Shown here in pieces: positions 1-28,660 of a stretch of 32,146 nt of DNA. The stretch is from assembly GCA_031256895.1 (NCBI GenBank), contig JAIRPR010000191.1, forward strand, positions 1 through 32,146, written 5' to 3'. This DNA is from Coriobacteriaceae bacterium. GTDB lineage: Bacteria > Actinomycetota > Coriobacteriia > Coriobacteriales > Eggerthellaceae. The notes under the pieces were generated by a model. The model saw nothing but the letters and a program-made list of their open reading frames with translations. It did no database searches and had not been told where the DNA came from. Position 1 is the first letter of the stretch, and the number at the start of each line of letters is the position of its first letter. The position numbers and the translations under genes are program-made.

Positions 1-1181
1 CTTGTGACGGGCTGAAGAGGGGCGGTACTGCCTGGGGGGCCGTTGACGTCCCGATTGAGGGACGGTGCCGGTGACGAGGCTGCCAGAAGCTCGGGGCTGG
101 ACCCAAAGGATGCCCCAAGGCCTTGCCCGCTGGCACCATCAGAAGCCGTCGGCACATGACAACTTGTTGTTTTCTGCGGCAACCGGGAAAAGCCCAAGGC
201 ATGTGCCATGGCGAAGAACTCCCGATCGGCAACCGGCTTGTTGCTTGCAGCACCAATCTGGCGTACCTGGTCGCACAGAAGGCGGGTCAATGGCCCATCA
301 TCGCGGAAGCCTTGCTCACGAAGCTTCATGCGCACCGCACCCACCCCGCTTTGCCTTCCCAAAAGCAAGGTACGCTTCTGTCCTACCTCTTCGGGGGGGA
401 AGGGCTCGTAACAACGGGGCTGCTTGGCTATTCCGTCAACGTGGATGCCCGACTCGACCAGGAATATCCGGCTTCCGAGCACCGCTTTGGCAGGAGGGGT
501 CTCCCTTCCGGTGACAAGCTGAAGCAACGCGGCCATCTCGGGGAACTGGGGGTGGCATTCGCTTGTCTGGCGAAGCCCTTGCGTGCGCAGGCACATGATG
601 AGCTCTTCGGTAGGGGCGAAGCCGCCGATGCCTCCGAAGGAACCGACCAAGCGTGCGCCCGCACAGGTCAAGGCCCATTCGACCGCCAAAGCGGTGGCGC
701 AGCGTGTCTCGTCGGTGGGGCAAAGCTCGATCCCTTGGGGGAACTCTGCTTTCAGCTGACCGAAGAACCCCAGATAATCTTCGGTAGCCAGGAAGCCCAG
801 GCCGCTTAACCGGGTATCCGAGGAAGGGGGTTCGGCGAACAGCCTGCTCAAGCTTGCCTTCGTATCAGCCCTTTGTTCCTGGGTGACCCTTTGGGCAGTG
901 CGCACCCCTTTGAGCCCCCCACATCCTTCCCGATCCAGTGGATCTGCGGCACAGACGAAATGCTTGATGGCAGGGTAACGTGCGCAGGCGGTGGCATCGT
1001 TCATCCGCAGCACATAGGCCGGGTGTTCGGGCAGTGGGGCAAGTGCTGCATACATCGCCTCTGAAAGCTCGATGGACTCTACGCCGGTCTCTATCAACAA
1101 GGTCAGGAAACGCTTGAGCGCAGGAAGCTGGGCACGGGAAGGGGTGAGGCAGGAAAGCGTCCGGTCACAAATGCTTATCAT
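1..1181 (-). CDS. nifV: NifV-like homocitrate synthase subunit (omega-type), partial at left edge
   Basis: The frame is open from ATG at 1181 to the window edge (393 codons), starting 14 nt after the nifB stop. Homocitrate synthase condenses acetyl-CoA with 2-oxoglutarate to make the organic ligand of FeMo-cofactor. The best match is the C-terminal part: 'ESGIHVDGIAK' around residues 243-253, followed by a 'PEEVGQ...LLGRQSGVGAV' segment. The N-terminal TIM-barrel half is degenerate. The expected 'TLRDGEQ' reads 'TLSCLT' (about residues 8-13), and the metal-binding HxHND of the family reads CPTDE at residues 154-158. Family knowledge: Clostridium pasteurianum splits this enzyme into omega and alpha subunits. 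By inference this is the omega-type subunit, and an alpha partner may lie beyond position 1. The last 60 or so visible residues are Ser/Ala/Pro-rich. Certain as a NifV/isopropylmalate-synthase-family protein; less certain on its role. Confidence 0.8.
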   Translation of the reverse strand, partial: MISICDRTLSCLTPSRAQLPALKRFLTLLIETGVESIELSEAMYAALAPLPEHPAYVLRMNDATACARYPAIKHFVCAADPLDREGCGGLKGVRTAQRVTQEQRADTKASLSRLFAEPPSSDTRLSGLGFLATEDYLGFFGQLKAEFPQGIELCPTDETRCATALAVEWALTCAGARLVGSFGGIGGFAPTEELIMCLRTQGLRQTSECHPQFPEMAALLQLVTGRETPPAKAVLGSRIFLVESGIHVDGIAKQPRCYEPFPPEEVGQKRTLLLGRQSGVGAVRMKLREQGFRDDGPLTRLLCDQVRQIGAASNKPVADREFFAMAHALGFSRLPQKTTSCHVPTASDGASGQGLGASFGSSPELLAASSPAPSLNRDVNGPPGSTAPLQPVT

Positions 1182-1195
1182 CGCGGATGCCTGCC

Positions 1196-2107
1196 TTATG
1201 CAACCTGCAAGGGGGGGCTGTCATGTTTGCGGCAAGTCCCCGGGGCGCAGGCTTCCTCATCAAGGAAATTGGAAAGGCTTCTGCCCAGGGGCCCTGCGGC
1301 ATCGGCACGGCATTGGCGGCAGTGGGTCATTTGGGGGATATGGGCTTTGCAGGCAGCACGCAGGGATGCAAGCTCTTGGTGGCTTATGCGCCCAAGGCCT
1401 GCGAACAGTGTCTGCGCCACGGGTATATGGGGCATGATGTTTGCCACGCAAGCCCCCATTTGGGCAGCCTTCTTGGTCACAGCGCTGATATGCCCCAGGT
1501 TGATGCCTTTGAGGGCAACGCAATTGACCTTGCAGGCCAAGCCTGCTTCCTTGAGCATCCGGATGCCTTCGAGTTGGTTTGCCTGCAGGATGGCGGCGCC
1601 CTCGGTGCCGGTGTAGACCCTGCCCTGATGGCGTATGTACGCATAGATGCGCGCCCCGATACGGGGGTCGATGGCATTCACGGTCACGGTGACATGGGAA
1701 ACCCCGAGGCTCACCAGGTCGGCCACGCGCAAGGGAAGGTCAAGGCCGTTGGTGGCGAGGCAAAAGGCGACAGTGGGGTCATACGCGCGAACAAGCCTCA
1801 GGGTTTCTGCGGTCTCGTCAAAGTTCGCAAGCGCATCCCCAGGGCCTGCGATGCCCACCACACTGATAGAAGCGAACTGCCCCTTGAAGGCCTTGTAGCG
1901 ATCGAGTGCCTGTGTTGGCCCAAGCACGGCAGAAGAGACCCCCGGGCGGCTCTCGTTCACACAATCATAGCTGCGGCTGCAATAGTTGCATTGGATATTG
2001 CAGCGGGGTGCGACGGGCAGGTGCACCCTTACCTGGTTGCAGGCGTGTTCATTGAAGCAGGGATGGATCTGCGTACCTTGGGCCCCCCATGTCTCCTTAT
2101 GCGCCAT
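1196..2107 (-). CDS. nifB: NifB, radical SAM FeMo-cofactor precursor synthase
   Basis: A 303-residue radical SAM protein that builds the 8Fe core (NifB-co) for the nitrogenase cofactor and delivers it to NifEN. The SAM-cluster motif CxxxCxxC is visible as C36, C40 and C43 ('CNIQCNYC'). It is preceded by the family 'HPC' (15-17) and followed by 'YDCVNESRPGV'. The closing 'CRQCRADAAGPLG' signature is also present. There is no NifX/NafY-like C-terminal domain, so this is the short form seen in methanogens and clostridia. The ATG at 2107 is chosen over upstream in-frame starts because a GGAGG lies 5 nt ahead of it and homology begins there. The gene overlaps the end of nifEN by 11 nt, which suggests translational coupling. 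Confidence 0.95.
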   Translation of the reverse strand: MAHKETWGAQGTQIHPCFNEHACNQVRVHLPVAPRCNIQCNYCSRSYDCVNESRPGVSSAVLGPTQALDRYKAFKGQFASISVVGIAGPGDALANFDETAETLRLVRAYDPTVAFCLATNGLDLPLRVADLVSLGVSHVTVTVNAIDPRIGARIYAYIRHQGRVYTGTEGAAILQANQLEGIRMLKEAGLACKVNCVALKGINLGHISAVTKKAAQMGACVANIMPHIPVAQTLFAGLGRISHQELASLRAACKAHIPQMTHCRQCRADAAGPLGRSLSNFLDEEACAPGTCRKHDSPPLQVA

Positions 2108-5100
2108 AACAGCCTCCTTCCTTGAAAGCCTCCGCTTTATCGGGGCATCCCTCAATGCTTCTCGACTGGCCTATGCTTTCTTGGAAGAAGCGTCCGTGCA
2201 GGTCGTCGCGAAAACCTGCATCGACCACATCTATCAGGGCGTTGGCAATGGCATCAAGCAGCCAAAGCGATCCTTCGAAGCCCAGGGTGCGTATCCTTTG
2301 GCCTCCTACATGGTCGTGGATAGGAAAGGCGCAACGGATAAGGGGCAGATGCAGGCGCTGGGCTATCCGGCGGGCATCGGAGCTGCCTATCAACAGGTTT
2401 GCGCCCGATTCGAGGCAAGCAGACTCGATATCCGAGAAGTCGCAATCGTCCATCACACGGGGCACCGGGGCGAAATGGAAGGCGGCGCAGGCCTGCGCTT
2501 CTTGTTCGACCACCTCTTTAAGGGAGGGGCACACCGATCCCGTGGCAACGACTGCAGGAAGGATGCCGTTCTCGCACATAAGCCGCACCAAGGCGTACAC
2601 GAAATCGGGGTCGCCGAACACAGCAACCCGTGCATCCGCGCAGTATTTATGGGAATCAGCCATGGCATCAAGATAACGTGCCCTTGCCTGAAGCGTCTTC
2701 GGGGGGATGACACCGCCCGCTTCTGCGACCGTCTGCAAAAACTGGTCCATCCCGCGCAAGCCAAGGGGCAGGGGAAGGCGTACCACAGGAACGCCGTGCG
2801 CCTTGTCAAGGTATGCAGCGGGCGAGCTTTCTTTGCCGATGAACGTTGAGAACTCAAGGGCCAGCCGACAATCGCCAAGCCTTGCCACATCGTTTAAGGA
2901 AGTGCCGCCCTTCTTCAGGCGCTGGTAGTCTGTCTGGACGCCCCCGTCAAGGCTTTCCGCTATATCGGGCAAGAGTATGCAGTCAAGTCCACAGCTTTCG
3001 AGGAAGCATCTCAGCCATCGCGTGTCAGCGCACGAGAGCAGGGGGGTCACGACTGCCACGCGGCTATGAGACGCACAATCGGTTTGCCTTGTCCCGACCG
3101 TGGCATCACCTTCCGGCCAGCGTGGATTGGCGGAAGTGTCTTTTGGGAAGCGCATTGCAACGGAAGTACCCTGGGGCATTGCCTCGGTTGACATGGGCAA
3201 TGCCCGGGGCGAAGAAGGCTGGGGGCACAGTTGGGCGACCAGGGATCGCAAGGCTGCAAAGAAACCTTCGTTATGGCTGCCGCTGTAGCCTGCCGAGCTT
3301 ATCGCCACGATCCTTGTCGTGCTTTGAGGCCTGCTTGCCTCGAATTCCTTGATGATGGCGTCCACATCTTCCCCTATGGTTTCTGCCAGACAGGTCGTGC
3401 ATACACCGATGAGGTCGGGCTGGTAGACGTCGATGAGGTTCTTCAAGCCCTTCATCAGGTTTTCCCGGCCACCGAACACCGTGCCTTCCTCGGTGAGGGA
3501 AGAAGAGGCGATGTCTATGGGCTCGTTGTAATGGGTGGCCATGTGACGCCTGATATAGGTTGCACATCCTTGTGAGCCATGCAGGATGGCCATGCTTTTG
3601 CGGATGCCGAAAAGGGCGCTGACCGCACCAAGGGGCATACACATCACACAAGGGTTCACGTTGAGCGCGGTAAGTCCTTTATAGCCGCCTGCGTGCCCTG
3701 CAATCAGCGGGTTTGACAGGCATCCATCGGCAGACGGTCGCCCGCCGCCTGACGGTTGCCCGCCGACTGTGGGGCACCCGCCGCCAGGCGGGCATCCATT
3801 GGCTGTGGGGCACCCGCTGGTTGGCAGACAACCGCCGTCTGAGGGGAACTTGCTCTCAGGAGGACACCCGCCGCCTGACGGGCGCCCATCGACTGGCAGA
3901 CACCCGCCGCCTGACGGGCATCCGCCGCCAGCCGCGGGGGCTTCAAGCCAGCTGTCAGGCGCTTGGGATAGCACAACGCCTTGCGCCTGCTTGACGTAAG
4001 GCCAGACGGGGCTGTTGAGCGACTTATGTATCTCGGAAACGAAGTTCCGGATGCCCTCGAAGCCGGCCAGGGGGTGCTTGCGTTCGTGGTTGTGGTCGCA
4101 GAACGCAATGCCCAGCTTGTAGGCCAAAGGCCGCTCTTTGACGCCGCCGACCAGGATGTCTGCCCCTTTTTCCAACAGGAAGGCCTCAAGTTCAGCGGGG
4201 TTGGCATCGTCGAGCACCACGGTGCCCTCGTCGACAAGGCTGGCGATGGTGGCATACTCGTCCGGCTTCCCGGTCTGTGTGCCCACCAGTACCGTTTTCA
4301 TGCCCAGCTCTTTGAACTGCCGGATGAGCGAGATAGCCTTGAAGCCCCCGCCCACAAAGATAGCGGCACGCTTACCCGTAAGACGCGGCCGGTAGGCTTC
4401 TATCAACGGGATCACCTCGGCCGTCTTGCTCGCTATGAAATGCTGTGCCATGGCCTCGACGCGGGGGTCTTGGGCAGCGCGTGCGATGCGCAGCAGGGAA
4501 GCCGAGCTGTCCTCGATACCGAAGAAGCTCACCTTCATGAAAGGGATGCCCCATTCCTTTTCCATGCGCTGCGCAAGGTATGCCGAAGATCCGGCGCATT
4601 GCACAATGTTGAGGTCTGCGGTGGGGGCTTGCATCAAGCTGTCCAGGCAGGCATCGCCGGTTATGGTGGAAACGACGTCGATTCCCAGATTGCGAAGGTA
4701 ACCAGCGATTATCCACATCTCACCGGCAAGGTTGTAATCGCCCAGGATGTTCACCTTCAGGCGCAGGTCCTCGCTGGCAGCCTGAGGGGCGCCGTCGCCC
4801 CTCTGCCGTCGAAGCATTGCGGCTTCGTGCCAGTCTTGCGGTTGCGACCTTTCGGATGGGGCAGCTAAGCCAGCAAGGGGGGAAGCGGTGCCGTCGCCCG
4901 TACGGGTGCCGCTGACGCCGTGGGCAGCATCGCCCATACGGATGCCGCTGACGCCGTTCACGGAAGGCGCAGAAGGGGCTATCAGGGTCATGATGGCGTC
5001 GCAGGCAAGCTTATAGCCGGTCGACTTGGTGCCCGAGAATCCGGGGGCTTTCACGGCTATCACACGGATTCCGTAGCGGGCTTCGGCGCTGCGGCAGACA

Positions 5101-5519
5101 GCCTCGACGTCGTCGCCGATGACTCCTACGATGCAGGTGGCGTATACGAAGATCAAACGGGGCGCGGGCTTCACGGTCCTCATCAGTTCGTCGATGGCGG
5201 CTGCAAGCTTCTTTTCGCCACCGAAGATGACATCCTTTTCTCGCAGGTCTGTGGAGAAGCTGGTACGGAAGACGTCTTCCCCCGAACTCAAGGAACCCCG
5301 GATGTCCCAGGTATAGCTTGCACAGCCGATGGGGCCATGCACGATATGGTAGGCATCGGTGATGGGGTTCAGCACGACGCGGGCGCCGCAGTACACGCAT
5401 GCACGCTGGCTGACCGAGCCGGAAACGCTCGGCTGTTCGCAGTGTATTGCCAAAGCAGCACCTGAGCCCTGCGCCACCTGTGCCCTGCGGTCCTCAAGCA
5501 CTGCTGTTCCCGTTCCCAT
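2097..5519 (-). CDS. nifEN: Fused NifE-NifN cofactor scaffold protein
   Basis: One 1140-residue frame carries NifE (about 1-515), a linker (about 516-607) and NifN (about 608-1105). NifEN is the scaffold on which NifB-co matures to FeMo-co before transfer to NifDK. The NifE half shows C41/C44, C66 and C129 at P-cluster-equivalent positions, and C308 ('NIVQCAGSS') at the position matching the cofactor cysteine of NifD. The NifN half begins with 'NVNPCVMCMPLGA' (C624/C627), 'HGSQGC' and 'TTCLAETIGEDVD'. The linker is made of GGGCP-like units with eight cysteines (534, 540, 552, 564, 570, 576, 582, 600). Further low-complexity insertions sit at about 181-250 (NifE) and 764-819 (NifN). Start: AAGGAGG overlapping the nifK stop, 5 nt before ATG. 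Separate NifE and NifN genes are the norm; fused versions are known in some cyanobacterial systems. Confidence 0.95.
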   Translation of the reverse strand: MGTGTAVLEDRRAQVAQGSGAALAIHCEQPSVSGSVSQRACVYCGARVVLNPITDAYHIVHGPIGCASYTWDIRGSLSSGEDVFRTSFSTDLREKDVIFGGEKKLAAAIDELMRTVKPAPRLIFVYATCIVGVIGDDVEAVCRSAEARYGIRVIAVKAPGFSGTKSTGYKLACDAIMTLIAPSAPSVNGVSGIRMGDAAHGVSGTRTGDGTASPLAGLAAPSERSQPQDWHEAAMLRRQRGDGAPQAASEDLRLKVNILGDYNLAGEMWIIAGYLRNLGIDVVSTITGDACLDSLMQAPTADLNIVQCAGSSAYLAQRMEKEWGIPFMKVSFFGIEDSSASLLRIARAAQDPRVEAMAQHFIASKTAEVIPLIEAYRPRLTGKRAAIFVGGGFKAISLIRQFKELGMKTVLVGTQTGKPDEYATIASLVDEGTVVLDDANPAELEAFLLEKGADILVGGVKERPLAYKLGIAFCDHNHERKHPLAGFEGIRNFVSEIHKSLNSPVWPYVKQAQGVVLSQAPDSWLEAPAAGGGCPSGGGCLPVDGRPSGGGCPPESKFPSDGGCLPTSGCPTANGCPPGGGCPTVGGQPSGGGRPSADGCLSNPLIAGHAGGYKGLTALNVNPCVMCMPLGAVSALFGIRKSMAILHGSQGCATYIRRHMATHYNEPIDIASSSLTEEGTVFGGRENLMKGLKNLIDVYQPDLIGVCTTCLAETIGEDVDAIIKEFEASRPQSTTRIVAISSAGYSGSHNEGFFAALRSLVAQLCPQPSSPRALPMSTEAMPQGTSVAMRFPKDTSANPRWPEGDATVGTRQTDCASHSRVAVVTPLLSCADTRWLRCFLESCGLDCILLPDIAESLDGGVQTDYQRLKKGGTSLNDVARLGDCRLALEFSTFIGKESSPAAYLDKAHGVPVVRLPLPLGLRGMDQFLQTVAEAGGVIPPKTLQARARYLDAMADSHKYCADARVAVFGDPDFVYALVRLMCENGILPAVVATGSVCPSLKEVVEQEAQACAAFHFAPVPRVMDDCDFSDIESACLESGANLLIGSSDARRIAQRLHLPLIRCAFPIHDHVGGQRIRTLGFEGSLWLLDAIANALIDVVDAGFRDDLHGRFFQESIGQSRSIEGCPDKAEAFKEGGCYGA
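3720..3940. repeat. GC-rich repeat block encoding the Cys/Gly/Pro linker of NifEN
   Basis: Repeats of a core 'CACCCGCCGCCTGACGGGC' are exact from about 3865 and 3901 (36-bp spacing). Diverged copies lie near 3748 and 3776. All lie in frame and encode the GGGCP/DGGCLP units joining NifE to NifN. Confidence 0.8.
4895..4957. repeat. 36-bp tandem repeat inside the NifE insertion
   Basis: Two 27-bp copies (4895-4921 and 4931-4957) differ at two positions and are spaced 36 bp apart, so they stay in frame. They encode two 'GVSGxRxGD' units within the insertion at NifE residues about 181-250, between the conserved 'KLACDAIMTLI' and 'LKVNILGDYN' blocks. Confidence 0.8.
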
Positions 5520-5529
5520 TCCTGCCTCC

Positions 5530-6894
5530 TTACATGACCACTTCGAAATCCTCTTCGGCGCAATCGCGGTCGAAGCGGTCCATCAGGGCGTTGCTTATCT
5601 TCTCGATAAGGCGTATGCCGCCGGTATACCCCACCACCGGCAGAAGGGAATGCCCATAGCGGTCCAGGACGGGAAAGCCGGCGCGCACGAAGGGGATGTC
5701 CTCTGCCCGGGCGATCTGCTTGCCGTAGCTCGAGCCGATGAGAAGGTCGACCGATTCACGTTTTATCCATTGGTGAAGCTCGAAGAGGTCCGAGCCCGCA
5801 CGGGCGATGCAGCCTTCTGCGCCATACTGTGCGAACAGCGCTTCAGCCTTGCGCGTGAACGTCTCTTTGGGCGTGCCGGTTATCACGTAGGCGGGCACCA
5901 TGCCTGCCTCAAGCACCAACGATGTCAGCGCCAAGACGATGTCGGGATCCCCGAACAGGGCGACCCGCTTCCCATAGGTGTATTGGTGGGAATCCAACAG
6001 CAGGTCCACCAGGCGGCCACGCTGCGCCTCCAGATCGGCGGGCACCTCGAGCTTCGAATGCCGCTGGAGCGCCATCACGAAGGCATCGGTGTAGGCCACA
6101 CCCACCGGCAGGGGCAGCAGCGTGTAGGGAACCTTCCATTTCTTCTCAAGAAGCTCGGCAGGCTCTTCGTTGATTATCTCGCCCAAGGCTATGGCTGATT
6201 CGCTGTCGCCGAGGCCGCGGATCTCGGCAATGGTGGTGCCCCCCTTCGGGTAAAGTTCGTAAGTGCCGGTCATGGGCGCGTCAAGCACGCCGCTCTGGTC
6301 GGGGAAGAAGGTGCAAGGCACCTCCATTTGGGCGGCTATCTGCTTCAGCTCGCGCAGGTCGCCGGGGTTCACCCAGCCGGGCAGAACGGCGCATCTTCCG
6401 TTGGGCACGCCCGTCTTTTGGGTGAGGTAGCTCATGAAGCCCATGGTCATGCGGGCATAGCCAACGATGTGCGAGCCGGCGTAGCTGGGCGTGTTGGCGT
6501 GCACGACCAGCTTTCCCGGTGGGACCTCCAGATCCATGATATAAGAGCCCAGGTCGTCGCCGATGGTCTCGGAAAGGCAGGTGGTATGGACCGCGATGAT
6601 GTCGGGGTCGTAGATGGCGAAGATGTTGCGCGTGGCAGCAACCAGGTTGCTCCTGCCGCCGAACACCGAAGCACCTTCGGTGAAGGAGCTCGAGGCTGCG
6701 ATGGCAGGCTCTTTGAAGTGGCGGGAAAGCACCGTGCGGTGGTACGAGCAGCAGCCTTGGGAACCATGGCTGTGCGGCATGCAGCGCTCGACGCCCAGGG
6801 CTGCGAAAAGCGCACCTACCGGCTGGCAGGTCTTACAGGGGTTTATCCTCAGTGCCCGGCGGTCCAGGTGTTCAGAGGGGGTCAGGTCAAGCAT
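5530..6894 (-). CDS. nifK: Nitrogenase MoFe protein beta subunit
   Basis: A 454-residue NifK, the beta subunit of the MoFe protein (dinitrogenase), which shares the P-cluster with NifD. P-cluster ligand positions are visible as C23 ('KTCQPVGA'), C48 ('HGSQGC') and C106 ('TTCLSETIGDD'). The protein is about 70 residues shorter at the N-terminus than proteobacterial NifK, as is usual for clostridial and archaeal forms. ATG at 6894 has an AGGAGG ten nt upstream, inside the last codons of nifD; the two genes are 3 nt apart. No truncation or odd insertion is seen, unlike its neighbours NifD and NifEN. Confidence 0.97.
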   Translation of the reverse strand: MLDLTPSEHLDRRALRINPCKTCQPVGALFAALGVERCMPHSHGSQGCCSYHRTVLSRHFKEPAIAASSSFTEGASVFGGRSNLVAATRNIFAIYDPDIIAVHTTCLSETIGDDLGSYIMDLEVPPGKLVVHANTPSYAGSHIVGYARMTMGFMSYLTQKTGVPNGRCAVLPGWVNPGDLRELKQIAAQMEVPCTFFPDQSGVLDAPMTGTYELYPKGGTTIAEIRGLGDSESAIALGEIINEEPAELLEKKWKVPYTLLPLPVGVAYTDAFVMALQRHSKLEVPADLEAQRGRLVDLLLDSHQYTYGKRVALFGDPDIVLALTSLVLEAGMVPAYVITGTPKETFTRKAEALFAQYGAEGCIARAGSDLFELHQWIKRESVDLLIGSSYGKQIARAEDIPFVRAGFPVLDRYGHSLLPVVGYTGGIRLIEKISNALMDRFDRDCAEEDFEVVM

Positions 6895-6897
6895 CGG

Positions 6898-8709
6898 TCA
6901 ATCGCCTCCTAGGGTGCCTTCAAGCATCGGTTGGTTCTTCCAGGGGGGCACGACCAACCCCCAAGCATTCGTGTACAAGGACATGGTGAGGTCGTGCGCG
7001 AAGTTCAATGCCCCCTGGAAACAGGTATAGGGGCCGGAATAGTCATAGGAATGGATCTGGCGCGAAGAGACGCCTGCCTTCTGGATGGAGTACTTGTCCT
7101 TGATGCCCGACAGGAACACATCAGGCTTGAGCCCCTTGATCAGGGCATCCGTCTCGTGGTGGTTGTAGTCGTCCACCACGACGTCTCCCGCGCCCATATC
7201 GGACATCATGCCGTCGTAGGTGTCCAGCTCGATGCCTTCTGCCACGCCGCCTGCCTTCAACGCGGCTATCTGGCTGGTTGAGTAGCGCTCGCGGTAATGG
7301 AGCGGATCAGGCTCTACCGTGATGGTCTCGATGTTCTTGCTGTCGGCGTCTTCCTTGATGAAGGGGATGACGTCGCGCCCCTCGTAATCGTCGCGGTGCG
7401 CGAACTCGTAACCGGCTATCACCGTTCTCATGCCCAGGCTCTCTAACAAGGCCTGGTAATGGTGCGAACGCGAGCCGCCCGAGAAGATGCCTGCGGTCTT
7501 TCCCGCAAGGCGTTGGCGGTACTGGTCCATCTGTTCCTGTATGGCGTCCATCTCTTCGGCAATGACCTCTTCCACCCTTGCGGAAAGGCCGGGATCGTCG
7601 AAATAGCGGGCAATGCTGCGCAAGGACTTGCAGGTGGCCTCGATGCCGATGAAGTTGACCTTCAGCCAGTCGATGCCGTACTTCGTCTTCATCATCTCGG
7701 CGATGTAGTTGATGGAACGATGGCACATGACCAGGTTGAGATGGGCAAGGTGGGCGCTTTTCAGGGCTTCGCAGGAAGCATCGCCCGTGAAGAGGTTCAA
7801 AACCTCTATCCCGCAGCGGGCAAGCAGGCGGCTTTCTTCCCAGCCGTCGCCGCCGATGTTGTATTCGCCCAGTATGTTGACCGAGAAGGCGGTCTTGGGC
7901 TGGGCATCGCCCGTTCCTATCACCGAACGCATCAACCCGTTGTTGGCGATGTGGTGGCCGGCCGATTGCGAAACGCCCTTGTAGCCCTCACAGGAATAGC
8001 CCACGGCGGTTATGCCGTACTTCTCTTCGGCGCGTCGTGCGACGGCCTGCACGTCGTCGCCGATAAGGCCGACGGGGCAGGTGGAGCATATCATGATGCT
8101 GCTGGGCTTGAAGAGGGTCATGGCTTCGTCGATGGCCTGCTCGAGCTTCTTTTCGCCGCCGAACACGATGTCGGATTCCTGCATGTCGGTGGAAAAGCAG
8201 TAGGGGACGAAGTTCTTGTCGGTATGCTCATCCGGCTTGGCCTTGTTGCGGCGCGTGCCCCAGGTGTAGAAGCCGCAGCCGATGGGCCCATGGGTGATGA
8301 CGCACACATCCTTCAAAGGGCCCACCACCACCCCCTTGCAGCCTGCATAGCAGCAGCCCCGCGCAGTCATGACGCCGGGTATGGCGCGGGTGTTCGCGGC
8401 AATGGTGTTTTCCTCGGCGGTCTCTTCCAAGGCCAGGATATGATCCTTGCGGTTCTTGTAGACCTTGGCAGGGTAAGCCTCAAGTATCCTTTCCCTGCTT
8501 GCGGCTGCCCGATTGGCATGCCGTGCGCTTGCCGGGACCGCTGGGGCAAACGGGGCAGCCGTCACTGTTGAGGCAACCGGGCTTGCAAGGCCGGCTGTCG
8601 CTGCCGGGGTCGCCGGCGTTGCCGTCGCTGCCGGGGTTGCCGCCGCAGATGTCGCTGCCGCTGCTGCTGAGGCCATGGTACCTTCCGTATCCGCATTCAT
8701 GCCGCTCAT
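6898..8709 (-). CDS. nifD: Nitrogenase MoFe protein alpha subunit with N-terminal extension
   Basis: A 603-residue NifD, the alpha subunit that carries FeMo-cofactor. Visible ligands are C119, C145 and C211 (P-cluster) and C329 ('LVMCHRS') with H553 ('IHSYDYSGPY') for the cofactor. 'SQSAGHH' supplies the substrate-pathway histidine (H252). The approximately 50-residue insertion near 455-508 is the type found in clostridial NifD and supports an anaerobe lineage. Residues 1 to about 65 are an Ala/Thr/Pro-rich extension not usual for the family; homology begins near 'ILEAYPAKVYKNRKDHI' (75-91). ATG at 8709 overlaps the nifI2 stop (ATGA). An alternative ATG at 8700 has a better-spaced GGAAGG. Neither start removes the extension. 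Confidence 0.96.
   Translation of the reverse strand: MSGMNADTEGTMASAAAAATSAAATPAATATPATPAATAGLASPVASTVTAAPFAPAVPASARHANRAAASRERILEAYPAKVYKNRKDHILALEETAEENTIAANTRAIPGVMTARGCCYAGCKGVVVGPLKDVCVITHGPIGCGFYTWGTRRNKAKPDEHTDKNFVPYCFSTDMQESDIVFGGEKKLEQAIDEAMTLFKPSSIMICSTCPVGLIGDDVQAVARRAEEKYGITAVGYSCEGYKGVSQSAGHHIANNGLMRSVIGTGDAQPKTAFSVNILGEYNIGGDGWEESRLLARCGIEVLNLFTGDASCEALKSAHLAHLNLVMCHRSINYIAEMMKTKYGIDWLKVNFIGIEATCKSLRSIARYFDDPGLSARVEEVIAEEMDAIQEQMDQYRQRLAGKTAGIFSGGSRSHHYQALLESLGMRTVIAGYEFAHRDDYEGRDVIPFIKEDADSKNIETITVEPDPLHYRERYSTSQIAALKAGGVAEGIELDTYDGMMSDMGAGDVVVDDYNHHETDALIKGLKPDVFLSGIKDKYSIQKAGVSSRQIHSYDYSGPYTCFQGALNFAHDLTMSLYTNAWGLVVPPWKNQPMLEGTLGGD
8597..8642. repeat. 27-bp repeat in the NifD N-terminal extension
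   Basis: Two 19-bp near-identical copies (8597-8615 and 8624-8642) lie 27 bp apart inside a run of Ala/Thr/Val/Pro codons. The spacing keeps frame and suggests the extension grew by tandem duplication. Confidence 0.7.
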
Positions 8710-9173
8710 CCTTCCTCTTCAAACCCGGTGCCCAGGCCTTCGCCTTGGGTAGGGTGCTCGGCTGCACTCGGTACAGCCGGTCCTAGATCCAAGCCTTCAG
8801 CCAGCGAGGCCTCGCCGGTGCTCACGCGGTAGCTTTCGGCTATGGGCAGGACGAAGATCCTGCCATCACCGGGGCTGCCGGTCTGATTGACGTCCACAAT
8901 GGCAGTGACGGCTTTCTTCACCTGGTCGTCCTCTACCACGATGATAAAGGCGCGCTTTGCTATCAAGCGTGATGCCTCGGTCATGTTCTCCCCCAGGTAG
9001 TTGCGGGGAAGCTCGCCCTGTGCAAGCACCATGTCCAGCAATTCGGGGTCGATGCCCTTCTTGCCGCGCCCCAGGCAGCGCAGGCAGGTGAAGGCGGGAA
9101 AGCCGCTTTCGGCAAGGGCCAGCTTGGTGGGGTTCACCTTGTCCGGGCGGATGATGGCGATAAGCTCACGCAC
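8706..9173 (-). CDS. nifI2: NifI2, PII-family nitrogenase regulator
   Basis: A PII-like protein (155 residues from GTG at 9173). In methanogens the NifI1-NifI2 pair binds NifDK and switches nitrogenase off when ammonium rises, relieved by 2-oxoglutarate and ATP. Visible PII features are 'RELIAIIRPDKVNPTKLAL' at the N-terminus, 'LGRGKKG', the 'AFIIVVEDDQVKKAV' strand-helix, and 'GDGRIFVLPIAESYRVSTGE' near the end of the domain. A roughly 30-residue acidic/Gly/Pro tail follows. A longer GTG start at 9182 is possible, but AGGGGG lies about 8 nt before 9173 and only 1 nt before 9182, and family homology starts at 9173. Confidence 0.9.
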   Translation of the reverse strand: MRELIAIIRPDKVNPTKLALAESGFPAFTCLRCLGRGKKGIDPELLDMVLAQGELPRNYLGENMTEASRLIAKRAFIIVVEDDQVKKAVTAIVDVNQTGSPGDGRIFVLPIAESYRVSTGEASLAEGLDLGPAVPSAAEHPTQGEGLGTGFEEEG

Positions 9174-9185
9174 AGCAGCCACCCC

Positions 9186-9509
9186 CTATAAGCCGGTCTG
9201 GCCGCTGGATATGGTGTAGGCGGCCTCGACGGGCGAAACGAAGATGCGTCCGTCACCATAGCTGCCCGTGCCCGTGCGGGCAGTGCGCATGATGATGGAG
9301 ACCAGATCGTCCTTGTCTTCATCGGCGCACACGATGAGCAGCATCTCCTTGGGGATCTCGTCGTAGTGGATCTCGCCGACCGAGATGCCCTTCTGTTTCC
9401 CGCGCCCGTACACGTCTATCTTGGTGACGGCGGGGAAGCCCGCCGCTGCCAACTCGCTTAGAACAAGCCCGGTCTTTTCCGGCCTCACGATCGCCTGTAC
9501 CAACAACAT
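9186..9509 (-). CDS. nifI1: NifI1, PII-family nitrogenase regulator
   Basis: A 107-residue PII protein, partner of NifI2 in post-translational control of nitrogenase. It begins 'MLLVQAIVRPEK', has the short T-loop typical of NifI1 ('RGKQKGISVGEIHYDEIPKEMLLIV'), and ends 'GDGRIFVSPVEAAYTISSG'. The T-loop tyrosine used for uridylylation in GlnB is not at its usual place. The ATG at 9509 is chosen over an upstream extension because GGAGAA sits 6 nt before it and homology starts there. It is separated from nifH by 187 nt containing two strong hairpins, and is nearly contiguous with nifI2. Confidence 0.93.
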   Translation of the reverse strand: MLLVQAIVRPEKTGLVLSELAAAGFPAVTKIDVYGRGKQKGISVGEIHYDEIPKEMLLIVCADEDKDDLVSIIMRTARTGTGSYGDGRIFVSPVEAAYTISSGQTGL

Positions 9510-9525
9510 GGGTGTTCTCCTTCCC

Positions 9526-9552
9526 GGGAAGGGGCATAAAGCCCGCCTTCCC
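9526..9552 (-). promoter_or_regulatory. Hairpin directly ahead of the nifI1 ribosome binding site
   Basis: The arms GGGAAG+GGGC and GCCC+CTTCCC pair with a 2-nt bulge and an ATAAA loop (read on the plus strand). One arm overlaps a perfect 14-bp palindrome (9519-9532) that contains the nifI1 Shine-Dalgarno. Pairing there could limit nifI1 translation or stabilise an upstream processed nifH RNA; this role is inferred. Confidence 0.55.
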
Positions 9553-9665
9553 ACACAGCTTCCTTATGGTGTCTTATCTTTGCACAACTGCTCATTTGCT
9601 CGGTGCCCGCGCCCTGGCAACTGCTGCCAAACGGCCATGCCACCGCTTCCTTGCAGGTTTGGGGG

Positions 9666-9696: not shown

Positions 9697-10650
<954 letters not shown>

Positions 10651-10715: not shown

Positions 10716-10869
10716 GCTTTGCTCAGGCGCATCCGTAGTTGGGTGGGAAGGAGATCTGGAACAGAACGGATCGGATAGCCCCGTTCAGGTTGCCCGCCAT
10801 GCCGATGCACAGCACGAGGTTCACCATCAGGACAAGGGCTACAATCCCGAAAGCAAGGAACAGCATCCG
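10716..10869. repeat. 154-bp direct repeat, copy 1
   Basis: Matches 11262-11415 with about four mismatches over 154 bp. It covers the last 48 codons of paralogue A and 7 nt beyond the stop. The sharp border inside two otherwise diverged genes suggests gene conversion or partial duplication. Confidence 0.9.
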
Positions 10870-11256
10870 GAAAGCACAGCGGATGGGGCTTTTCCTCTCT
10901 GCAAGCGCAGGTGTAGCTGCGTTATTGATGTTGTTGTCAACCTTGACAAAGAATACCCTGAAGGCAACCGTCAAGAGGAAATAGGCGAGCAAACAAAGGT
11001 AAGGGATGGTTTCCAGAAGATTTTGATGGAATATTCTTTGATCGGCCAAGGATATCCCCAGCATGGTATGCGACTCCCACGAGAATGCATGGAAAGCAGC
11101 ATTTATGCCCATAAGGGTGATACATGCCAATTGGGAAAAAAGCATCATCAATGCTACTGTGTGGATGGTTTTTGACACGGTTTTTCCGGCAAGGTTGAAC
11201 CTTCCCGGGTCTTTGTTATCCGCCGAAATGCCCATGTCCTGCCTTCCGTTTTCCAT
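10723..11256 (-). CDS. Small three-helix membrane protein, paralogue A
   Basis: A 177-residue protein of unrecognised family. It has three hydrophobic segments (about 32-55, 84-108 and 130-155) and ends in a conserved 'FQISFPPNYGCA' tail. Residues from 'RMLFLAFGIV' to the C-terminus are the same as in the adjacent gene at 11269-11787, whereas the first two thirds are only loosely similar. It follows that gene by 12 nt, so the two are likely co-transcribed. The ATG at 11256 has no clear Shine-Dalgarno, which fits translational coupling. Its position just upstream of nifH on the same strand may be chance or may mean co-expression; no function is claimed. Confidence 0.75.
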   Translation of the reverse strand: MENGRQDMGISADNKDPGRFNLAGKTVSKTIHTVALMMLFSQLACITLMGINAAFHAFSWESHTMLGISLADQRIFHQNLLETIPYLCLLAYFLLTVAFRVFFVKVDNNINNAATPALAERKSPIRCAFRMLFLAFGIVALVLMVNLVLCIGMAGNLNGAIRSVLFQISFPPNYGCA

Positions 11257-11261
11257 TCTGC

Positions 11262-11415
11262 GCTTTGCTCAGGCGCATCCGTAGTTTGGCGGGAAGGAGA
11301 TCTGGAACAGAACGGATCGGATAGCCCCGTTCAGGTTGCCCGCCATGCCGATGCACAACACGAGGTTCACCATCAGGACAAGGGCAACAATCCCGAAAGC
11401 AAGGAACAGCATCCG
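11262..11415. repeat. 154-bp direct repeat, copy 2
   Basis: Second copy of the repeat at 10716-10869; it covers the last 48 codons of paralogue B and the first few bases of the gap before paralogue A. Confidence 0.9.
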
Positions 11416-11787
11416 TCCAATAAAGTGTTTTTTCAATACCTCGGTTTCATCAGGAGCTTTGGCGGCGCTCATCCCGCTTTTCCGTGACCGGCAGAAGAGC
11501 TTCCTATATACCTGAAACAACAAAAAGCAAAAGGCCAGACAGAGCAAAGGGGTAAATACCTGGACGCTCCCGTGGATGAAAGCCTGCAGGTCGTATGCGG
11601 GATCGGGCAGAGAGGGCCCGGGTTCGAGGAAATTCCAGAAATACGCATGGAAAAGCACGACAAGCCCCATGGATATGAGGCAGGCCAACAACGAAAGAAG
11701 CATCAGCACCGATAATGCGCGTATGCTCTTCGGCAGTGCTTCATGTCCGAGAGCAAGACGGAGAAAGCGAGCTATCCCCCTATCCAT
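11269..11787 (-). CDS. Small three-helix membrane protein, paralogue B
   Basis: A 172-residue protein of unrecognised family with the same layout as its neighbour: hydrophobic segments at about 20-48, 80-102 and 124-150, a basic loop ('CRSRKSG'), and the shared 'FQISFPPNYGCA' tail. The ATG at 11787 is preferred over an upstream in-frame extension to 11952 because AAGGAGG lies 10 nt ahead and a promoter (-10 at 11898-11903) falls inside the extension. It is the first gene of a two-gene unit. The shared C-terminal helix and tail being near-identical while the rest diverges points to recent sequence exchange. No catalytic motif is seen. Confidence 0.75.
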   Translation of the reverse strand: MDRGIARFLRLALGHEALPKSIRALSVLMLLSLLACLISMGLVVLFHAYFWNFLEPGPSLPDPAYDLQAFIHGSVQVFTPLLCLAFCFLLFQVYRKLFCRSRKSGMSAAKAPDETEVLKKHFIGRMLFLAFGIVALVLMVNLVLCIGMAGNLNGAIRSVLFQISFPPNYGCA

Positions 11788-11897
11788 CGATGTCGTTCCT
11801 CCTTGTATCATCCGGTGTCGCAAGTGCCTGTGCCTCCTGCGGGCCTGCATCAGTCCAAGCCCGCATCCATTAACCTTCACCCCATGCCGGGGTTTCC

Positions 11898-11926
11898 ATT
11901 CTATCGCAGAAATGAATGGCTGACAA
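11898..11926 (-). promoter_or_regulatory. Promoter for the small membrane protein pair
   Basis: On the minus strand, TTGTCA (11926-11921), a 17-bp spacer and TAGAAT (11903-11898) form a good sigma-70-type promoter about 110 nt ahead of the ATG at 11787. The rest of 11788-12117 shows no supported gene. Confidence 0.6.
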
Positions 11927-12117
11927 ACAGGCAGCGAAAATTCACCATCCACCAGGCTCTTTCGACTGAAGCCACTTTCTCAGACGGGTGCGCCAGCTTA
12001 AAGCCAATCATAGATGAAGGCTGGCGGTCTGAGGCCTTTACGCGACAAAGGACAGTTCCCTGTCACGTTCATCCCTTGGAACCATTGCCTCTATCCAATC
12101 AGTCTGTCATGATAGGG

Positions 12118-12229: not shown

Positions 12230-12469
12230 ATGAACAAAACAGCAACAGTGCACAAATGGGGCAGCGGGCTCGGAGTTCAATTGTCCAAGCCGATCGCAGA
12301 TGCCCTTGGACTGAGGCGCGGAAGCAAGGTCGAGCTGAGCATGTGCGGCGATGAGCTGCGGGTGCGTCCCTTAAAGAGCTACCGCATAGAGGATCTGCTG
12401 CGTGACTACGATGGCCCAAGTCCCGATGAATACGACTGGGGCGCCCCGGCTGGAAAGGAGGTTTGGTAG
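12230..12469 (+). CDS. mazE: MazE-family antitoxin
   Basis: A 79-residue AbrB/SpoVT-fold antitoxin that should neutralise the adjacent toxin and repress the operon. The N-terminal swapped-hairpin motif reads 'ATVHKWGSGLGVQLSKPIADALGL', followed by 'GSKVEL'. The acidic C-terminus ('DEYDWGAPAGKEVW') is the usual toxin-wrapping tail. ATG at 12230 matches the family start and has AAAGG about ten nt ahead; an upstream ATG at 12212 lacks one. The stop overlaps the toxin start by 1 nt. Confidence 0.9.
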   Translation: MNKTATVHKWGSGLGVQLSKPIADALGLRRGSKVELSMCGDELRVRPLKSYRIEDLLRDYDGPSPDEYDWGAPAGKEVW

Positions 12470-12798
12470 TGGCGATCTTCGACCAATGGGACATTGTCGA
12501 GTTCGACCTCAGCCCTTCATCAGGACATGAACCGAACGGGCGCCGCCCAGCGCTCGTTGTGAGCAACAGTCACTTCAATGTTGGCACATCTATGACGCTC
12601 GTCTGCCCCATTACATCTGCGAGCAACGGCTTCCCCTTGCATCTGCCTCTTCCCGATAGCCTTGAGACCAGAGGCTTTGTTGTCACAGAGCAACTGAGGG
12701 CGCTTGACTTTTCAGCCAGGCGGGCTCAACTCATAGAGCGGCTCGACGACAAGGCGCTCTCCGCAGCCATCTTGGAGTGCCTGCGCTCGTTTATCTGA
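12469..12798 (+). CDS. mazF: MazF-family endoribonuclease toxin
   Basis: A 109-residue PemK/MazF-fold toxin that cleaves RNA at short sequences when freed from the antitoxin. It shows the family opening 'GxxxWDIVEFDLSPSSGHEPNGRRPALVVS'-type block (residues 7-34), the 'VCPITS' strand, and 'EQLRALDFSARR' near the C-terminal half; the usual Arg and Thr/Ser active-site positions look intact. GTG at 12469 is chosen because AGGAGG ends 7 nt before it. A TTG at 12463 is too close to the ribosome site. The toxin-antitoxin pair lies between the nif region and rpoB. Confidence 0.92.
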   Translation: MAIFDQWDIVEFDLSPSSGHEPNGRRPALVVSNSHFNVGTSMTLVCPITSASNGFPLHLPLPDSLETRGFVVTEQLRALDFSARRAQLIERLDDKALSAAILECLRSFI

Positions 12799-27944: not shown

Positions 27945-28660
27945 GTGCTGCACACGGCACGGCTTCCGCACACGGCACGGCTTCCGAACAAGGCACGGCA
28001 GCCGAACAAAGTGAGGCGCTCCCTGCAGGCCAGAAAGGCACTTTCCGCAAGCCTATCAGGATAGGGGTCCTTATCAGCGGCAGTGGATCGAACCTGCAGG
28101 CCTTCATCGATGCCATCGGGCAAGGTTGCCTTGATGCCGTTATCGTGAAGGTCATATCCTCGCGCCCCGACGCCTATGGGCTTGTCCGGGCCCAAAAGGC
28201 GGGCATACCGACCTGTGCGCTCGACAAGGATGTGTTCTTGGATCCAGCGGCAGCGAACCGCCTGATCGCAGAAGAGCTTCTCAATGCCGGGGCAGAATAC
28301 GTGGTGATGGCTGGCTATATGCGCAAGATAAGCGAAGAGGTGCTGGATGCCTTCCCTGACAGGGTCTTGAACATCCATCCGGCGCTCCTGCCTTCCTTCA
28401 AGGGCGCCCACGCTATACAGGATGCCTTCGCGGCGGGCGTCAAGCTGACGGGGGTCACCGTCCATTTCGCGAACGCCGAATACGACAAGGGCCCCATCAT
28501 TGCCCAAAGGGGCGTCGAGGTGCGCGAAGACGAAAGCCTTGCTTCCCTGGAAGCCCGCATCCATGAGGTAGAGCACGAGCTTTACCCTGCTACCCTGCAG
28601 CTGCTCGCTGAAGGGCGCATCAGCATAGACCAAGAGAGGAAGGTGCGTATCAGTGGATAA
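27935..28660 (+). CDS. purN: Phosphoribosylglycinamide formyltransferase
   Basis: A 241-residue GAR transformylase that moves a formyl group from 10-formyl-THF to GAR. Catalytic residues lie in 'LNIHPALLPSFKG' (Asn and His) and in 'GVTVHFANAEYDKGPIIAQ' (Asp). The core starts near residue 40 ('RIGVLISGSGSNLQAF'). The first 35 or so residues are an added segment with three six-residue repeats like HGTASA. ATG 27935 has GGAGG 7 nt upstream and overlaps purM; an ATG at 27941 is an alternative. The stop overlaps the next gene by 8 nt. Confidence 0.95.
   Translation: MDMSAAHGTASAHGTASEQGTAAEQSEALPAGQKGTFRKPIRIGVLISGSGSNLQAFIDAIGQGCLDAVIVKVISSRPDAYGLVRAQKAGIPTCALDKDVFLDPAAANRLIAEELLNAGAEYVVMAGYMRKISEEVLDAFPDRVLNIHPALLPSFKGAHAIQDAFAAGVKLTGVTVHFANAEYDKGPIIAQRGVEVREDESLASLEARIHEVEHELYPATLQLLAEGRISIDQERKVRISG
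27950..28003. repeat. 18-bp tandem repeat at the start of purN
   Basis: Three consecutive 18-bp units (27950, 27968, 27986); the first two are identical and the third is diverged. They encode AHGTAS, AHGTAS and EQGTAA. Confidence 0.9.

Follow-up and report, generated by a model that had tools for sequence, protein, structure and literature searches.

The question raised by this locus is whether a homologue of the homocitrate synthase NifV that lacks catalytic and metal-binding motifs, and that is the last visible gene of a nif operon, represents a decaying gene or one subunit of a split enzyme. The DNA analysed (here called the window; 32,146 nt) is the entire contig C163 of a Coriobacteriales genome (G000; 2.36 Mb in 224 contigs, 77.5% complete), and this contig stops inside the gene of interest, the frame of which runs on the minus strand from position 1181 to position 3 (393 aa) and is open at the left contig end. 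The visible operon has the order nifH-I1-I2-D-K-EN-B-V(omega) on the minus strand and contains, upstream of the last gene:

1196..2155, minus strand: nifB, radical SAM part, without a NifX-like domain (TIGR01290 319 bits, below the 343.65 cut-off; Pfam Radical_SAM)
2097..5519, minus strand: fused nifE-nifN (TIGR01283 641 bits, TIGR01285 316 bits)
5530..6894, minus strand: nifK (TIGR01286, over cut-off)
6898..8709, minus strand: nifD (TIGR01282 643 bits)
8706..9182, minus strand: nifI2, PII-like (51-58% to relatives)
9186..9554, minus strand: nifI1, PII-like (61-79% to relatives)
9697..10632, minus strand: nifH (TIGR01287 448 bits, over cut-off)

NifE and NifN are joined via a Gly/Cys/Pro-rich tandem-repeat linker (window 3699-3953), and each is interrupted by low-complexity sequence at a comparable position (window about 4767-4985 in NifE and 3060-3233 in NifN); NifE and NifN are separate ORFs in those relatives where both are readable as ORFs.

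Within the last gene, the following features were assigned:

3..1181, minus strand: nifV-omega gene (393 codons), its 3' end lying off the contig
207..1181, minus strand: conserved part of omega (aa 1-325), comprising the degenerate barrel and the C-terminal subdomains (alignment of 17 omegas, AlphaFold2, fold match)
3..206, minus strand: additional Ser/Ala/Pro-rich tail, in frame and stopless, without counterpart in other omegas; linker or extension
1149..1160, minus strand: TLSC replacing TLRD(GEQ), metal Asp gone (alignment, motif count)
708..722, minus strand: CPTDE replacing HxHND, both metal His gone (alignment, motif count)
618..635, minus strand: GGIGGF, ERA of GxGERAGN deleted (alignments)
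441..452, minus strand: SGIH, with His247 matching His379 of M. tuberculosis LeuA (MtLeuA) by motif; invariant in 17/17 omegas
408..410, minus strand: Tyr258, matching MtLeuA Tyr410 by motif; invariant in 17/17 omegas

The proposal of the earlier note that the DGEQ and HxHND motifs are both replaced while the C-terminal part is kept was confirmed by an alignment with six single-chain NifVs, in which TLRDGEQ corresponds to TLSCLTP (omega aa 8-14), HxHND to CPTDE (aa 154-158) and GxGERxGN to GGIG---GF with three residues missing, while ESGIHVDGI...CYEPFPPEEVG is retained in the C-terminal part. The NCBIfam nifV model TIGR02660 matches residues 139-325 only (profile positions 176-364 of 365) with 92.7 bits (E 2.8e-26) against a cut-off of 462.9 bits, and HCS_D2 is the only Pfam domain found. 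Single-chain NifV (TIGR02660; for example in G068, G112 and G369) belongs to the same superfamily and occupies the same metabolic place, and its C-terminal part is retained in omega; however, it also retains RDGEQ and HxHND (8/8), whereas the window's protein has neither motif and scores below the cut-off. Neither the frame breaks nor the loss of conserved positions that would mark a pseudogene were seen; instead, homology to the NifV C-terminal part is combined with loss of the catalytic motifs of the barrel and with a location in the nif cluster directly after nifB and nifEN. The assignment of the whole of positions 1-1181 to a NifV homologue stands for aa 1-325 (to window position ~207), but not for aa 326-393, which form the tail without counterpart in relatives.

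The AlphaFold2 model of omega (pLDDT 88.3, pTM 0.86) is a complete but degenerate (beta/alpha)8 barrel, in which the strands are still present and the helices are shortened, followed by C-terminal subdomains. Because the modelled chain comprises a full barrel as well as the subdomains, its N-terminal part is, according to the prediction, degenerate rather than deleted, and the product is modelled as a degenerate-barrel protein and not as a half-protein. The best fold match is the Sulfolobus homocitrate synthase 6ktq_B (Z 25.2, rmsd 3.8, 318 aligned residues, 18% identity); structures of LeuA-type isopropylmalate synthases and homocitrate synthases (6ktq, 2ztj, 1sr9) share the fold of the whole omega, but these chains bear all catalytic residues, whereas the omega barrel is catalytically empty. 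Alpha is modelled as a plain TIM barrel (pLDDT 93.7).

Relatives of the pair were retrieved with a profile built from two omegas, a first scan of genome contigs with the single omega protein having returned 29 pattern matches and no relative, and a pattern scan of viral contigs no omega match. A single clear orthologue was present among 395 genomes of the order (G371, 49% identity), the contig of which also ends inside the omega frame; the C-terminal half of an alpha, bearing HAHND and GIGERAGN, stands at the start of another G371 contig. The two-omega profile identified 16 loci in named genomes, one of which (L100, Coriobacteriales bacterium Po218_bin41) is the G371 contig itself with a 100% identical omega. 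These loci (L096-L111; Oscillospiraceae, Lachnospiraceae, Treponema, Candidatus Fibrimonas, Desulfovibrio, Marasmitruncus massiliensis and Ruminiclostridium hungatei among their hosts, many of which presumably come from termite guts, judging from record titles and recall) encode omegas that are 28-47% identical to that of the window and have lost the same motifs. They differ from the window in that an alpha with RDGEQ lies downstream of omega in 15 of the 16 (the genome of the sixteenth, G371, having its alpha fragment on another contig), in that nifE and nifN are not fused in any locus where both are visible, nifN-B being mostly fused, and in that their omegas end after 268-337 aa, whereas the window's frame is open at 393 aa. 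Upstream of omega, nif genes were found in 14/16 loci. One other ORF separates omega from alpha in L101, the alpha of L099 is cut by a contig end, and that of R. hungatei DSM 14427 (L108 7004-7900) is frameshifted in the record (error or real). The earlier interpretation of the gene as the omega half of a split homocitrate synthase is thus supported by orthologues, by the downstream alpha and by the fragment in the sixteenth genome.

None of the 17 omegas retains any of the three motifs, and they have their own invariant residues in common. When two omegas of a second type (see below) were included, RDGEQ, HxHND and GxGERxG were each present in 0 of 19 omegas, and SGxH and the Tyr in all 19; among 17 alphas, RDGEQ was counted in 16, HxHND in 17, GxGERxG in 16, and SGxH and the Tyr in none, the two misses (one RDGEQ, one GxGERxG) being fragments cut by contig ends. 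These counts indicate that the two subunits hold complementary sets of motifs, just as a single LeuA-type dimer site takes residues from two chains. By motif, S244-G245-I246-H247 and Y258 of omega correspond to SGSH379 and Y410 of MtLeuA, and by our own count in an alignment the SGIH His falls at position 292 of the Thermus enzyme. The LeuA structure paper reportedly has the His379/Tyr410 region supplied by the other chain in the natural dimer. A passage on MtLeuA describes a homodimer with metal ligands Asp81, His285 and His287, and docked compounds that reach Ser376, Gly377, Ser378, His379 and Tyr410 of the other chain (chain B) near the active site (PMC5498780), while a passage of a further paper lists H379 and Y410 together with the acetyl-CoA groove of GxGERxG (PMC2704214).

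Considering that the SGIH His and the Tyr point towards the active site of the other chain in LeuA-type homodimers, a single composite site shared by alpha and omega can be proposed. Alpha, a complete TIM barrel in its model, has the metal ligands (the Asp of RDGEQ and the HxH) and the GxGERxG acetyl-CoA loop, and stops short of the C-terminal subdomains. Omega is a dead barrel to which these subdomains, including the conserved His of SGIH and Tyr of YEPF, are attached; it would be a pseudoenzyme acting as dimer partner and donating the lid in trans. Together they would form a heterodimer with one composite active site, the homocitrate product of which would go to FeMo-co. The gene is very probably nifV-omega, and its product the C-terminal-type half of a split homocitrate synthase; such an alpha/omega heterodimer with a composite site and homocitrate synthase activity is the likely mechanism.

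The alpha partner was sought in G000 with four queries (the NifV profile, a single-chain NifV, the G371 alpha fragment and a 15-row alpha profile), and an alpha with RDGEQ was not found in this 77.5%-complete assembly, where the matches were leuA (C176, C197), cimA (C183), a pyruvate carboxylase-like gene on C128, and omega. The sole N-terminal match, C176:1-234, was rejected as an alpha since comparison by eye with a LeuA identifies it as the beginning of leuA, the rest of which is on C197. A walk outward from the left edge of C163 detected no overlapping contig in G000; C192 was rejected as a continuation because its short matches stem from tandem repeats of 36 nt within a gene resembling a transport permease. 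Using the G371 neighbour gene as bait for the gap gave no match in G000, and an RDGEQ start is absent from all three frames of the last 420 nt. From the related loci we infer that alpha is present in this genome, where it should lie directly beyond the left end of the contig.

An intact full-length nifV elsewhere, which the earlier note had named as a finding that would point to decay, was retrieved neither from the G000 assembly (NifV profile and single-chain NifV queries) nor from any of the 15 omega/alpha genomes (15/15; NifV query, matches at E <= 1e-25). The best match in the latter reached E 6e-61, the matches being ORFs of LeuA, CimA or alpha size, and a 355-aa candidate cut by a contig end was rejected as LeuA-like; true single-chain NifVs of eight genomes gave E 6.5e-98 to 9.8e-267. 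Conversely, the omega query retrieved from those eight genomes only the single-chain NifV at E <= 1e-13. The single-chain NifV of G369 lies next to nifH, and G369 nests among split-NifV clusters in a NifK tree (16 rows; loci whose retrieved sequence had no NifK ORF being left out), which argues that the split and single-chain forms replace each other.

If a full-length nifV had instead lost its catalytic motifs by decay, leaving the nif cluster or FeMo-co impaired, the missing motifs, the missing alpha and the longish branch of the window's omega (1.18, longer than those of its nearest relatives, with 0.65 for G371) would all be accounted for. Nevertheless, the same losses are common to 17 diverged omegas that form one clade (support 100/99; the alphas, analysed without the frameshifted copy of L108 in both alignment and tree, also form one, 100/98), and the inner branching of Lachnospiraceae, Treponema and Fibrimonas matches between the two trees. 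In the Treponema/Fibrimonas branch, omega is under purifying selection like alpha, with dN/dS of 0.056-0.107 for omega and 0.085-0.132 for alpha (6 pairs each from four loci, which represent the closest 4 of the 17 omegas and a sister branch of the window's copy). The window's omega retains 34/35 positions invariant in the other 16 omegas and 48/51 positions conserved in at least 15 of these 16, without a stop in 393 codons; taken with the E-values, the 34 retained positions exclude chance resemblance. Decay is therefore very improbable, and the single clade, the purifying selection and the retained invariant positions argue, at the level of sequence, that omega is a working subunit. As its branch is longer and its exact place inside the clade is not settled, the window's copy may be under some relaxed constraint. 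It is also very improbable that omega works with another alpha-like barrel, or that homocitrate is taken up or made elsewhere: LeuA (C176 and C197) and CimA (C183) are indeed present in G000, but both have C-terminal domains of their own, and all related genomes examined have a dedicated alpha along with omega.

A variant of the heterodimer concerns the tail, which adds 68 in-frame codons after aa 325 up to the contig end and could be a low-complexity linker into an alpha barrel, in which case omega and alpha would be fused in this genome as an internal pseudo-heterodimer with a single composite site, enzyme and pseudoenzyme being tied covalently. The open frame agrees with this, and a fusion is conceivable given that the same operon already has one such case, NifE joined to NifN by tandem repeats. 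The GC content by codon position of the tail (0.64/0.66/0.61) resembles that of the in-frame NifN insertion (0.59/0.66/0.59; omega core 0.64/0.50/0.68). Elsewhere, omega and alpha overlap in 8/15 pairs, the overlap being 4 nt in six (from ORF coordinates, with chosen alpha starts). Such tight coupling would be expected in the window too, but the 68 extra codons are found instead, which speaks against the main reading. Against a fusion, the two genes are separate ORFs in 15/15 loci where both are visible (0/15 fused), and the G371 omega tail, likewise open at a contig end, consists of inserted repeats, so that open tails need not be linkers. We regard the fusion as unlikely, though with an appreciable share of the probability, and retain two separate subunits as the preferred reading. 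Should it be true, the fusion together with the second type of pair would mean that homocitrate synthase has been split more than once and re-fused. The G371 omega end (L056 2147-2346) contains a perfect 25-nt inverted repeat and 12-nt tandem repeats exactly at the contig break, and the idea of a purposeful linker was dropped for that tail on finding them.

Split NifV as such is already known from Clostridium, where omega is the C-terminal-type half of NifV and where a 1991 report on C. pasteurianum is said to describe the nifV-omega/nifV-alpha split in the same order. For three Clostridium species, nifV-omega followed by nifV-alpha is given downstream of nifE and nifN-B in a published table (C. 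butyricum FF104_18340/18345, C. acetobutylicum CAC0260/0261 and C. beijerinckii Cbei_2011/2012; PMC12342839). The window, likened to these by gene order and not by sequence, differs in its host, a presumed gut bacterium of the Coriobacteriales, its fused nifE-nifN, its separate nifB, the omega tail and an alpha that is not in the assembly. A split NifV outside Clostridium was not found in the titles, abstract openings and some passages searched, which is no proof of absence; as far as these searches show, hosts among the Coriobacteriales, Treponema, Fibrimonas and Desulfovibrio are new. The present analysis adds the taxonomic spread, the way in which the two forms exclude each other, the test of selection, the complementary motifs and the second type of pair. 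The split form is widespread (Bacillota, Spirochaetota, Fibrobacterota, Thermodesulfobacteriota and Coriobacteriales) and goes with one type of nif cluster, and all its nifV model scores are far under the cut-off; since the model misses the split enzyme, diazotrophs with this form look as if they had no homocitrate supply. Deletion of nifV reduces 15N2 assimilation more than acetylene reduction (PMC3798268), from which it follows that losing the split enzyme would be costly. The pair also offers a clean test of whether a pseudoenzyme subunit can supply the trans-acting C-terminal residues of LeuA-type synthases.

The second type of pair, omega2/alpha2, lies next to nifB in R. hungatei (L122 4689-6606, G406:C18) and in one other genome (L123 4882-6874, G396:C27); the R. 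hungatei copy also adjoins nitrogenase-like genes, and its genome is the one with the frameshifted alpha (L108). Omega2 is longer and less degenerate than omega, and clusters with neither omega nor single-chain NifV. An uncharacterised protein of ~325 aa without NCBIfam match recurs beside alpha or the nif cluster (L091 520-1500, L096 8400-9392, L098 7789-8718, L123 9108-10082 and L067 10732-11718), and the G371 alpha (L091 3-620) contains a Pro/Gln-rich insertion of ~30 aa directly in front of HAHND, and there is an overlap of ~100 nt with the gene that follows.

In G000, in-frame minisatellites occur in several genes (window 3733-3929, 8597-8660 and 27950-28009) and in the transport permease gene that starts contig C192 (L130 1-192 and 3318-3474, G000:C192), and could be the cause of part of the numerous contig breaks in this assembly. 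Upstream of nifH, two adjacent small proteins without Pfam match (window 10723-11256 and 11269-11952) have identical ends of ~48 residues and represent a local duplication, and a PemK/MazF-like toxin gene is located on the plus strand (window 12463-12798; Pfam 80 bits). The genome also contains a second nitrogenase-like cluster (L046 4235-9983, G000:C84), comprising two NifD/E-like genes, nifH, nifB and a NifX-like gene without NifV, which perhaps encodes a homocitrate-free reductase and has a similar counterpart in G098 (L051).
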